Shown here: positions 4,544 to 8,812 of the stretch, piece after piece | How positions within the stretch are numbered: position 1 is the first letter of the stretch | How the letters are laid out: each line of letters opens with the position of its first letter | Assembly (NCBI GenBank): GCA_031266415.1 | Contig: JAISBB010000005.1 | Coordinates: forward strand, 1-64,000 | Origin: Oscillospiraceae bacterium | GTDB lineage: Bacteria; Bacillota; Clostridia; Oscillospirales; Ruminococcaceae | DNA length: 64,000 nt | Direction of reading: 5' to 3' | Position numbers and translations under genes: made by a program | The notes under the pieces: model-generated | Seen by the model: the letters and a program-made list of their open reading frames with translations, nothing else | What the model was told of the DNA's origin: nothing | The model's database searches: none

Positions 4544-5722
4544 CTATGTTTTCGCCGTTGTTTTCGCCGTTGTTTTCGCCGTTGTCGCTAAAGGTTGCCA
4601 ATTACTACTCGGTATTTCCTTTGTGGTCACCAGCAGAATCAAGTTTGAAGGAGTTTCGTCGGCACCCGGGAATTTGAGTGTTAGTGTGCCATTCGCATCA
4701 ATTTTCCCCTCAGGACCTTTCCCTTTGATAATACCTCTCAGCGAACCAGAGTTTTGATTTTTCTCACATTCCGCAGAGTCGAACCAATAAGTCCAAATTT
4801 TGGTGTTATCCTTAAACTTTTCTGCCTCTCCTTCCGGCAAACCATCTGTTGGACTAAAAGTGATATTCCAATCACCAGCAGGAATTGCAAGAAATTGAAG
4901 TAAGCAAGCTCCCATGTCTTCGCCCAAATCCGAAATCTTGTCTAACATTATTTCATTTTCGAAAAAATTAACACCTAATACTGCGGCTTGTTGTGTTGGC
5001 AAAATTTCAGTAATATTAAATACTATGCCATTTCGAAACGTTATTTCTAATTTACGGTAGCGGCGGCGCAAAGCAATAATCCCCGAACGAACCAGCGAAA
5101 TACTGTTCACGCGGTCGACTTTAAATTCATCGGAACCGTTAAGATAAACGGCATCCGCATCAATTTTTTGCGGTGCTGGAACAATCGCGTGAATAAAAAA
5201 TTCTATATCATCACCACTAGGTTTGTGCAAAATTGTAACAGTAATATTATGTTCTGATTGCGCCTGAGGAATCTGTTCGCGACCTTTCAGCACAACAACC
5301 CACGCACCATTTCGGTAACCGCAAACACCGCTTAAATAAGCAGTCCGTACCTCAATTGCTGCTCTTTTCCCCTTGGTTGTTGCTATTGACGTTTTAATAG
5401 TAAAATCTTCTTTTCGCAATCCCTCAGGTTGCCTTACTTTTCCCCCCCCATTACCAAAAACAGTACCTTCTCCTGTGCCGCCAAACACAAAATACATTGG
5501 CACATTACCATCGAGGTAAATTGTAATTTCATGGCCATCAGTGCTGACCTCAGAAACAGGAGTCGCACCACGAAGTTGCTTGGCAACCCCTTTATCCACA
5601 AGTGCAATCTTAGCGGTCGGAAGTGGGGTATCTGCGTCCGCAGCACAAATCAGCGGGGAACACAACAGAAGTAAAAGAACAAAAAAACTTAAAAAAACAG
5701 CTTCAAATTTGCGAAATTTCAT
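4544..5722 (-). CDS. Exported protein of unknown function with TTAK repeats at the C-terminus
   Basis: I do not recognise this 392-residue protein. It begins MKFRKFEAVFLSF, followed by a Leu-rich core and a likely signal-peptidase site near ICAADA, so it is probably secreted. The mature part looks beta-rich, with many short hydrophobic strands and no obvious catalytic motif. It ends in three TTAK-like repeats coded by three perfect 12-base units (4547-4582), and the TAG stop follows immediately. The ATG at 5720-5722 was chosen over an upstream TTG because GGGAGG precedes it by about nine bases and the signal peptide starts there. It has its own promoter (5788-5816). The neighbouring larger surface protein suggests an envelope role. 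Confidence 0.75.
   Translation of the reverse strand: MKFRKFEAVFLSFFVLLLLLCSPLICAADADTPLPTAKIALVDKGVAKQLRGATPVSEVSTDGHEITIYLDGNVPMYFVFGGTGEGTVFGNGGGKVRQPEGLRKEDFTIKTSIATTKGKRAAIEVRTAYLSGVCGYRNGAWVVVLKGREQIPQAQSEHNITVTILHKPSGDDIEFFIHAIVPAPQKIDADAVYLNGSDEFKVDRVNSISLVRSGIIALRRRYRKLEITFRNGIVFNITEILPTQQAAVLGVNFFENEIMLDKISDLGEDMGACLLQFLAIPAGDWNITFSPTDGLPEGEAEKFKDNTKIWTYWFDSAECEKNQNSGSLRGIIKGKGPEGKIDANGTLTLKFPGADETPSNLILLVTTKEIPSSNWQPLATTAKTTAKTTAKT
4547..4582. repeat. 12-bp tandem repeat, three perfect copies
   Basis: The unit TGTTTTCGCCGT (plus strand) occurs three times head to tail at 4547, 4559 and 4571. It encodes TTAK units at the C-terminus of the exported protein. Copy changes would lengthen or shorten the tail in frame without moving the stop. 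Confidence 0.9.
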
Positions 5723-5787
5723 GAAAGAAAAACCTCCCAAAACAAATAATTCAGTGAATTGCAAAAAATAAAAAAACAGCCACCGCT

Positions 5788-5964: not shown

Positions 5965-8187
5965 TTACTTGTTTCGTTTTCTGGAAATTCCGAAAGAAGC
6001 AAGCCCAAGCAACGCAATTCCAAGAACGCCGGCAGAAACATTTGCAACAGCACCGCCAGCTGGAAGGGATTTCTTTGTGTCCACAACAACCTCTGTGGCT
6101 TCAGTAGGTGCTGCGATAGGGGCTTCTGTTTCCGCGGTGGCAGGCCCCACGTTGCCAGCCCCAGCACCTGCTCCTTCCACTCCACCACCCGGTAAAACTT
6201 CACCAACAGGTGCCTCATCGACCAAACCATCAGTAGCATCAAACAAATCATCGTCAGGAGCGACAACATCACCGGCGGTCGTATCAGCATCCTTTCCAGC
6301 AGCAGCCGTTTCTGCGTCTGCTTCGTCAGATGCAGGAAGCGGATTCTTTTCTAAAAACTTTTTGGAAACAACAGCTACAACACCGCCAGCTTCAACACCA
6401 CTCGGCAGAGTCACTGTCATGTCGTCGCCATTTTGTTTTGTGCCTAATGCTTCTGCAACTTTTGCCTCATCCTCTGGGTCATCTGCCGCGGATACTGCAG
6501 TTGATTTTTTTGCTGCCAACCATGTGTCGAGGGTATCCTGGCTGTCGAACCAAACTGCGGTATACTCTTTCACACTGTAAGCGGGAACCGTAACTGTTTT
6601 TGCGACATCCATAGTGGAACCACTGACCACAGCAACAGAACTTCCGTCGGCAGCCGACGCGTCGTCAAGAGCAAAGTCAATTTTCTTGCCAATTGCGGCA
6701 CCTTTTGGGAAATTTACAAGAACAGTCTTGCCATTCGGCAATCCAATAGACAAATCTCCACCGGTTTTCGAAAACTCTTTAGCTGTGTCAGAAGCAATCG
6801 GTGAACCCGTTGGAATGGTTCCATCAGTGATATCATCAGCGCCATCGCTTTTGTCTAGAGAACCATCAACATCAACAACAAACTTTTTGCCACCGGCTTG
6901 GACAGTCACCTTACCTGTGAAACTTCCGGATTTCCCCTGTTCCTGCAACCGCAAAACAACAGCTAATGCGTCAACAGAGATAGTTCCGTCATCGCTTAAA
7001 TTAATTTTTCTTGTTTCCAGTTTTGGAATTACAGTGGCCCCCGATTTCCTAGTGTAAGTTACAGAAATCGAACTCGTATCTGTTGCGTCAAAATCTTTTG
7101 ACAGATTTTTAAACGCATTCACATAAGTCGGTGTTGCCGGCGTCCCAGCGCCTCTTACGGCCTTCTCTATGCTGTTTTTCGCAAGCAAAAAAATCATAGG
7201 GCACAAGTAGCGGTTTAACGTGGCCCCCGAAGTACCAGCACCGGCGGAACCGCCACCGCCATTTGTCAGGAACAGAGTGGGGTCCGTTGGCTCGGCCCCC
7301 TTTACCAAGAGGTTGGTTGCGTGTAGTCCGCCGATGGCGTACGTGTTCCCGGCCGGGGCCTGAACGTCATTTGCTCCGTCCGGTCCTATGTCTGTCGGCA
7401 GCAGCACAGTGGGGTTGCCGAAATATGGCAAGCCGGCGGTGGCGGCGCCAATGGGGGCAGCGGAGACGCCGCACACAACGCCGCCCCTGATGACTGCGAA
7501 GTCGTCCCTTCCAAAAGCGCAAGAAGGAGCGACCCACCAAAAGTTGTTAGCTCCCCCGTTAGAACCGGCCATGGCCAAGAACAGCGCGGCATTGGCTCGA
7601 CCAAACGCATATAAATTGGAGCCCGCGGCGATGTATTTTGATCGATCGCCCGTTATTTCCCCCCACCCGGCGGTCGGCAGCCAGGCGCCAGCCGCAAGGC
7701 CAGCGGGGCGTCCGGCTGCGAACTGTGACAATTTTGTGTTTAATGCGTTTTCAATTTCGATGAAACGATCCACAACCAACAAACAGGTTGCATGCGAATA
7801 ACCAGTTCGAATAGATTCTAATTCGGCCAAAACACCAAGGGCCGTTTTCGCAGCATCTGTTGGAGCCGCCTCAGACAGCGCGTTAACTTTTGTTAAAAGA
7901 TCAGCCAAACGTTTCTTCAACGCAACTGCATCTTCCGCAGATGGCGTTCCAACGTTTTCAAGTTCGCGGTTATAAAAAAGAGCAAATGCACCCTCGTTCA
8001 AACCTTTAACAGTGCGAGCAACAAAAGATTCGCCACTAAAAGAAAGAACCGGTTTCCCATTTTTTTCACCAATTGGCAAACAATTCGCTTCGCTAATATT
8101 CGCTTTCACAGTTGCCGCTGAGCCAACACTAACCCAACTTGCGAGAACGGCCACAGCCAAAAGGTTTCCTAACAATTTTTTCTTCAT
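5965..8187 (-). CDS. Large surface protein with C-terminal membrane/wall anchor
   Basis: This 740-residue protein has a signal peptide (MKKKLLGNLLAVAVLASW, cleavage near GSAA) and ends with the pattern LPAGG, a hydrophobic stretch and RKRNK. That is the layout of a sortase signal, although the classical Thr of LPxTG is replaced by Gly, so simple membrane anchoring is also possible. The middle holds beta-type segments; residues about 600-700 are acidic and Ala/Pro-rich, a likely wall-spanning linker. Residues about 150-349 are encoded by a sharply GC-rich block (see findings). No enzyme motif was recognised. The ATG follows GGAGGT. It has a clear promoter and terminator and forms a single-gene unit. 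Confidence 0.8.
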   Translation of the reverse strand: MKKKLLGNLLAVAVLASWVSVGSAATVKANISEANCLPIGEKNGKPVLSFSGESFVARTVKGLNEGAFALFYNRELENVGTPSAEDAVALKKRLADLLTKVNALSEAAPTDAAKTALGVLAELESIRTGYSHATCLLVVDRFIEIENALNTKLSQFAAGRPAGLAAGAWLPTAGWGEITGDRSKYIAAGSNLYAFGRANAALFLAMAGSNGGANNFWWVAPSCAFGRDDFAVIRGGVVCGVSAAPIGAATAGLPYFGNPTVLLPTDIGPDGANDVQAPAGNTYAIGGLHATNLLVKGAEPTDPTLFLTNGGGGSAGAGTSGATLNRYLCPMIFLLAKNSIEKAVRGAGTPATPTYVNAFKNLSKDFDATDTSSISVTYTRKSGATVIPKLETRKINLSDDGTISVDALAVVLRLQEQGKSGSFTGKVTVQAGGKKFVVDVDGSLDKSDGADDITDGTIPTGSPIASDTAKEFSKTGGDLSIGLPNGKTVLVNFPKGAAIGKKIDFALDDASAADGSSVAVVSGSTMDVAKTVTVPAYSVKEYTAVWFDSQDTLDTWLAAKKSTAVSAADDPEDEAKVAEALGTKQNGDDMTVTLPSGVEAGGVVAVVSKKFLEKNPLPASDEADAETAAAGKDADTTAGDVVAPDDDLFDATDGLVDEAPVGEVLPGGGVEGAGAGAGNVGPATAETEAPIAAPTEATEVVVDTKKSLPAGGAVANVSAGVLGIALLGLASFGISRKRNK
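7140..7740. other. GC-rich module inside the surface protein gene
   Basis: Counting bases line by line, 7201-7740 is about 63% G+C (340 of 540), while 7021-7140 and 7741-7800 are about 38-40%. The change at both edges is abrupt. The module encodes about 200 residues rich in Gly, Ala and aromatic residues (for example NNFWWVAPSCAFG). It keeps the reading frame, which fits replacement of one domain by a foreign or differently evolving one. Confidence 0.8.
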
Positions 8188-8283: not shown

Positions 8284-8376
8284 TAGGTATTGCAAAAAAA
8301 TTATTTTTTATTTCACACTAACTCATCGCCACCTGTAATTCTTTGCATTTTCGGTGTATTTACTTCGCAAAAAATT

Positions 8377-8616
8377 TTAACCAGAGCTTTTCGACCATCT
8401 TTCTATTTTGTAACCATATTCCAATTTCAAACTTACCTGTCGCACATCTCCAAAATCCAAATCGCACAATTTTAATCCCCCATTAACAAACTGATTCACG
8501 TCTCCTGTAACAAAAAACTCCGTTGTGAAAGAACCACACACCTCTCTGGAAATATCCCACTCTGAAAATATTGCTGTTGCAGAATCAATAACTGTCACTT
8601 TCTCACAAAAAAATCA
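8377..8616 (-). pseudogene. Duplicated 3' fragment of murI
   Basis: This stretch repeats the last ~190 bases of murI directly downstream of it. It encodes about 55 residues nearly identical to the MurI C-terminus (VTVIDSATAIFSEWD onward) and then continues 18 residues, SLKLEYGYKIERWSKSSG, to a stop. It has no ribosome binding site and lacks the rest of the enzyme, so it is probably not a functional gene. It likely preserves the original C-terminus that the upstream copy lost. Confidence 0.85.
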
Positions 8617-8812
8617 GCCACGCAAACTTACCTGCCGCACATTTCCAAAATCCAAATCGCACAATTTTAATCCCCCGTTAACAAACTGATTCACATCTCC
8701 TGTAACAAAAAACTCCGTTGTGAAAGAACCACACACCTCTCTGGAAATATCCCACTCTGAAAATATTGCTGTTGCAGAATCAATAACTGTCACTTTCCCA
8801 CAAAAAAAATCA
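8428..8812. repeat. Tandem duplication of about 190 bp at the end of murI
   Basis: Copy 1 covers about 8428-8616 and copy 2 about 8623-8812, with a 6-base joint. By eye there are five substitutions and one missing A in an A-run, giving about 97% identity. The duplication is recent enough to be obvious but has started to diverge. Confidence 0.92.

Follow-up and report, generated by a model that had tools for sequence, protein, structure and literature searches.

A gene for an exported, probably wall-anchored protein carries an internal GC-rich block that differs abruptly from both of its flanks, including at synonymous sites. The gene lies on the minus strand at positions 5965-8187 of the window, by which we mean the whole 64,000-nucleotide stretch analysed, on contig C5 of a 736,233-bp draft genome (7 contigs, 97.8% complete). 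Tentatively, and at somewhat less than an even chance, we read the block as the variable part of a mosaic gene for a surface protein, a part that recombination has overwritten with divergent, GC-richer alleles from outside this genome (see also Origin of the block).

A sharply bounded GC-rich block within one gene

The features of the gene are as follows.

5965..8187, minus strand: gene for an exported, probably wall-anchored orphan protein of 740 aa (open frame, signal peptide, anchor-like C terminus)
8113..8187, minus strand: signal peptide, codons 1-25 (from the translation)
7726..8112, minus strand: AT-biased N-terminal flank, codons 26-154, GC3 ~0.33 (GC3 segmentation, translation)
7138..7725, minus strand: GC-rich block, codons 155-350, GC3 0.66, rich in Ala, Gly, Leu, Pro and Thr (segmentation with permutation, codon-position composition)
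5968..7137, minus strand: AT-biased C-terminal flank, codons 351-740 (GC3 segmentation, translation)
5968..6069, minus strand: LPXTG-like anchor region, with SLPAGG, a hydrophobic stretch and the basic tail RKRNK (anchor models below cut-off)

The richest 540 bp of the whole window lie at 7199-7738, with a GC content of 0.626, compared with 0.528 for the next independent stretch and a window mean of 0.382. Likelihood segmentation of GC3 delimits the block to codons 155-350; the log-likelihood ratio is 28.0, compared with 12.1 for the highest of 300 permutations. From the start of the gene, GC3 stays at ~0.35 for 154 codons, rises to 0.66 for 196 codons and then returns to ~0.35. Of the 434 ORFs that reach 200 codons in ~96% of the 736-kb genome, none has a stronger intragenic GC3 step. 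The abrupt GC-rich module that the first-pass annotation had placed at 7140-7740 is thus real and accurately located, and the flanks, which it had put at about 38-47% GC, come close to this at mostly 38-50%.

Amino-acid composition alone was considered as the cause of the step and is ruled out by fourfold-degenerate sites, at which GC is 0.64 in the block and 0.32 outside it (Fisher p = 2e-9); hence, the step is not a by-product of an Ala/Gly-rich protein. GC is nearly flat across the three codon positions of the block (0.60/0.61/0.65), and synonymous codon use is near-uniform across the GC-rich modules of this genome. Two genes of a GC-rich relative, by contrast, have codon-position values of 0.60/0.44/0.84 and 0.62/0.41/0.84. 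The dinucleotide signature of the module also departs from that of the genome (0.094, where 200 samples of its own genome reach no more than 0.071). Codon-usage and k-mer profiling had been proposed as a check; the profiles computed here cover GC3, codon positions and dinucleotides.

The block is nevertheless coding sequence. It is open in the frame of the gene, while the five other frames each contain two to eight stops, and a random open frame can be discarded as an explanation, with only 16 of 5000 base shuffles of the block left open. G occupies the first codon position at a similar frequency in the block (45%) and in the flank (49%), which indicates that codon periodicity persists. The reading frame is kept through the module, as had been claimed, and the in-frame joins at both of its ends make a chimeric assembly unlikely. 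A further rise in GC toward the 3' end of the gene (5999-6672, GC 0.527) has, in contrast to the block, a low GC3 of 0.27-0.50 and is ordinary coding sequence rich in Ala, Gly, Asp and Glu.

The gene comprises 741 codons from an ATG start, within a longer mechanical ORF that begins at 8295. Its product opens with the signal peptide MKKKLLGNLLAVAVLASWVSVGSAA, and a crude hydrophobicity rule likewise classes it as exported. A family search with the protein gave no match above cut-off and no known domain, and the anchor region scores below cut-off with both models concerned (14.1 of 20 bits for PF00746 and 14.7 of 15.9 bits for TIGR01167). The signal peptide, the LPxxG-like motif, the hydrophobic stretch and the basic tail resemble those of the LPXTG sortase-anchored proteins of Gram-positive bacteria, and, as in LPXTG systems, a sortase-family protein is encoded in the same genome (PF04203 at G000:C4:285983-286468, 28.7 bits for a cut-off of 26.6, reached only with its neighbours in frame). 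Unlike LPXTG proteins, this one carries SLPAGG as its motif.

Two neighbouring loci show repeats of their own. The adjoining exported gene (window 4544-5764) is without a GC step and ends in a 12-bp tandem repeat encoding TAKT units. At window 8428-8808, the 3' end of murI carries a tandem duplication of 186 bp, 97% identical and with a spacing of 195, which gives a second copy of the MurI C terminus downstream of murI.

Searches for relatives of the block and of the protein

The block has no other copy or silent cassette in its own genome, and no relative was found among phage records (DNA and protein), plasmids (protein), IMG/VR or ~85,000 species genomes. Solved structures and PHROGs likewise yielded nothing for it. 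For the whole protein, no credible relative appeared in 60 related genomes, three of them congeneric; a search of genome contigs found none for codons 351-600 of the C-terminal flank, and none was found for the whole mature protein. Two weak matches in relatives (E 0.007-0.009) were judged to be chance, one falling in a frame antisense to an S-layer-homology-like protein and the other antisense to a frame with a dockerin-like end. Homologous genes with the same module and the same GC step across the lineage would point to an ancestral module; no homolog of the gene was found in the three sister genomes. At the limits of the block, we found no attachment sites, no convincing flanking repeats and no mobile-element ends, only short two-copy matches. 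A structure model made without relatives had a mean pLDDT of 35 and was not interpreted.

Other GC-rich steps in the genome

A scan for GC3 windows, with ORFs called mechanically, covered ~708 kb (~96% of the genome). With rRNA, tRNA and a GC-rich, mobile-looking contig end set aside, the highest GC3 windows concentrate in a small set of genes, listed here with two members of lower GC3.

L036:9211-11808: GC-rich gene for an anchored signal-peptide protein, also ending in SLPAGG
L050, L051 and L057, on contig C6: GC-rich genes for tandem leader-sharing proteins with CxxC motifs, zinc-ribbon family
L030: GC-rich gene for a C39-like exported protein, judged by eye, with no Pfam match
L039: GC-rich gene, kind not assigned
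L042: lower GC3, flagellin-like by eye
L038: lower GC3, CHAP-like protein

Among the 434 ORFs, the strong GC-rising steps that follow that of the window gene fall mostly in exported-type genes, or in a frame antisense to a leader-sharing member on contig C3. With exported status assigned by a crude signal-peptide (hydrophobicity) rule, a 60-codon window with a GC of at least 0.60 occurs in 7 of 95 ORFs with a predicted signal peptide and in 6 of 491 others (odds ratio 6.4, p 0.002). The overall GC distributions of exported and other ORFs differ little. The six others include a frameshifted member of the leader family, a frame antisense to a member of that family and frames at the mobile-looking contig end.

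Three further loci are of note. An exported CHAP-like gene (L038:1253-2176) sits between the 16S and 23S rRNA genes of the rRNA operon. GC-rich genes at the end of contig C1 (L059, G000:C1:40001-43553) resemble a mobile element or foreign sequence. A short, bacteriocin-like frame (L040:4982-5254) has a double-glycine-type leader (MEKLDFETLTEVDLLAIGG) and, after it, a GC-richer part.

Leader-sharing mosaic paralogs

The leader LEKKKIFKRVLSFLIAASLVNVPIVCAN is common to ~12 places on contigs C6, C3 and C2, many of them frameshifted or cut by contig ends, and several contig ends break within the leader repeat. DNA identity between copies is 88-92% through codon 30 and ~30-48% where the copies are GC-rich. 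In the pair L051a and L051b, identity starts at 92% for these 30 codons, drops to ~60% for the following 90 and reaches 32-48% beyond them, where both genes become richer in GC.

In L051a, the GC-rich tract begins ~100 codons further upstream than in its paralogs, over a region in which the proteins still align at ~30-55% identity, and the amino-acid identity between L051a and L051b does not fall across the L051a GC boundary. At identical amino acids within this extended tract, third-position changes run toward GC by 13 to 3 relative to L051b and by 11 to 4 relative to L050b; the same count is 6 to 6 relative to L050a, and changes in an upstream control stretch of L051a are balanced. Homologous stretches within a single genome can hence be GC-rich to different degrees, and GC-richness does not depend on any specific protein domain.

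Multi-gene surface families with a constant leader and a variable distal part constitute antigenic-variation-like repertoires. The copies on C6, C3 and C2 resemble such families in sharing leader DNA, in diverging downstream and in that several are frameshifted. The window gene differs in being single-copy and in having another leader.

The organism and its sister species

An ATP/ADP translocase is encoded in this genome and in two of the three sister genomes. Endosymbiotic Clostridia with an ATP/ADP translocase have genomes of 1.0-1.3 Mb (PMC10579323); the present genome shares with them its small size and the translocase, and differs in being smaller still (0.74 Mb) and less AT-rich. Genome size and the translocase together indicate that the organism is probably a symbiont, and it would be placed in the endosymbiotic Clostridia clade.

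In the sister genomes G001 (44% GC) and G003 (42% GC), many of the GC-richest coding windows, at 0.56-0.68 GC, lie in signal-peptide tandem families and flagellins. The enrichment for exported genes is weak in these sisters (reaching p 0.02 at a single threshold in G001 and no significance in G003), and the rise in GC is gene-wide, with no sharp internal block. The GC tendency is therefore common to the genus, with the sharp step best seen in the present genome. One region of G001 (L064:1-15600), ~15 kb long, is a tandem array of exported proteins that have a leader in common and carry GGAI-type repeats; its GC is mostly 50-60% in this 44% GC genome. A ComEC-type competence protein is kept in all four genomes of the genus; control searches showed ComEC to be common in bacteria.

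Origin of the block

According to the reading we favour, a reduced-genome bacterium of the ATP/ADP-translocase lineage would retain the AT-biased leader, flanking domains and anchor of its surface protein, while recombination would from time to time bring in divergent alleles that overwrite the exposed segment as one block. The donor alleles would belong to a GC-richer pool outside this genome, with the retained ComEC channel allowing their uptake, and the block now present would not yet have drifted to the AT bias of the genome. The step, its coding nature, its recurrence in other exported-type genes of this genome and the mosaic tandem paralogs are observed directly; that recombination replaces the block, that the pool is external, that the segment is exposed at the surface and that interaction with host or phage is the reason are inferred.

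Several results argue for overwriting: the step lies far beyond chance and at synonymous sites; strong GC-rising steps recur in exported-type genes, together with the signal-peptide enrichment; the leader-sharing paralogs are mosaic, with the L051a tract extended upstream; the dinucleotide signature of the module departs from the genome; and ComEC is kept throughout the genus. The recurrence of such blocks in exported proteins suggests a repeatedly renewed variable region, not a single acquired domain. Counting against overwriting are the lack of a donor or block relative in the searched collections, the near-equal codon-position GC, unlike that of typical GC-rich bacterial genes, the steady amino-acid identity of L051a and L051b at the GC boundary, which fits a process acting in situ equally well, and the lack of attachment sites or convincing flanking repeats; ComEC, moreover, is widespread. 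If the blocks are repeatedly renewed, composition alone would mark the parts of a symbiont surface that meet host or phages, and an otherwise shrinking genome would be keeping a diversified exported repertoire.

A GC-biased process in situ, which would push fast-evolving, recombining exported segments toward GC at all codon positions without foreign import, appears somewhat unlikely, although flat codon-position GC and near-uniform synonymous codon use in the modules are what it would produce. The third-position excess from AT to GC in the L051a tract (absent relative to L050a and from the control stretch) and the raised GC of exported genes in sister species of various genome GC point the same way. 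A link between recombination and GC across bacteria, with GC-biased gene conversion, has been described (PMC4450053), and the raised synonymous-site GC in a subset of genes resembles it. Gene conversion, however, needs donor copies, of which the window block has none in its own genome, and the change from 0.35 to 0.66 within tens of bases inside one gene is much sharper than expected. Were the process nonetheless in situ, it would represent an unusually sharp local GC push in an AT-drifting genome.

The first-pass annotation had proposed an exchanged domain in place of a gene evolving as one unit. Its separateness from the gene is borne out by the sharp limits, the synonymous-site composition and the mosaic paralogs elsewhere. 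A one-off horizontal acquisition from a GC-rich organism, with no wider meaning, is improbable, even though the limits are sharp, the distinct composition is foreign to the genome at synonymous sites and mobile-element-like GC-rich genes stand at the end of contig C1. No homolog was found in the collections searched, convincing flanking repeats are lacking, codon-position GC differs from that of such donors, and similar blocks occur in several other exported-type genes and, less sharply, in sister species. An artefact of assembly or amplification, with chimeric joins to DNA of a GC-rich organism, would be in keeping with a draft genome in which several contig ends fall in the repeated leader family, but is highly improbable given the open block, its in-frame joins, the kept codon periodicity and the same pattern in several genes.

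A genus-restricted reverse transcriptase

A reverse transcriptase that writes mutated copies into the GC-rich segments is a further, very unlikely explanation, raised by an RVT_1 protein above the Pfam cut-off at G000:C4:200127-201425 (L018:10124-11425). Its best match among solved structures is 8ub7, which we take to be the diversity-generating (DGR) enzyme of a Bordetella phage; NCBIfam and PADLOC returned only general or sub-cut-off reverse transcriptase matches. Relatives ~60% identical occur in G001 and G002 (the latter with one in-frame TGA), and G003 has a C-terminal fragment; the identity of MurI, given for comparison, is 35-48%. Among 57 relatives from outside the genus, no match appeared with E up to 1e-20, and IMG/VR gave none.

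A reverse transcriptase alongside variable exported proteins recalls diversity-generating retroelements, but the template/variable repeat pair and adenine-specific change that mark them were not found here. Gapless, A-tolerant scans compared the enzyme surroundings, and separately the modules, with most of the genome and returned mainly paralog matches and nothing convincing; these scans used 60-nt windows and would miss gapped or much shorter repeats. A BLAST self-comparison showed no A-biased repeat pair, no template/variable repeat was found around the enzyme in G001, and neither the composition nor the base changes of the GC-rich modules are adenine-specific. A link between the enzyme and the blocks is therefore only a possibility. 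There is an equally slim chance that a dedicated, genus-specific mechanism, perhaps with this reverse transcriptase, rewrites exported-protein segments as GC-rich without the known template-repeat logic.

By eye, the C-terminal tail of the reverse transcriptase resembles the end of MutS. At L018:15600-17200, several short open frames rich in Cys, Gly and Asn, with KGYCFCD-like motifs, lie downstream of a frame with a radical-SAM SPASM-like Cys pattern, and may represent a peptide-modification cluster.
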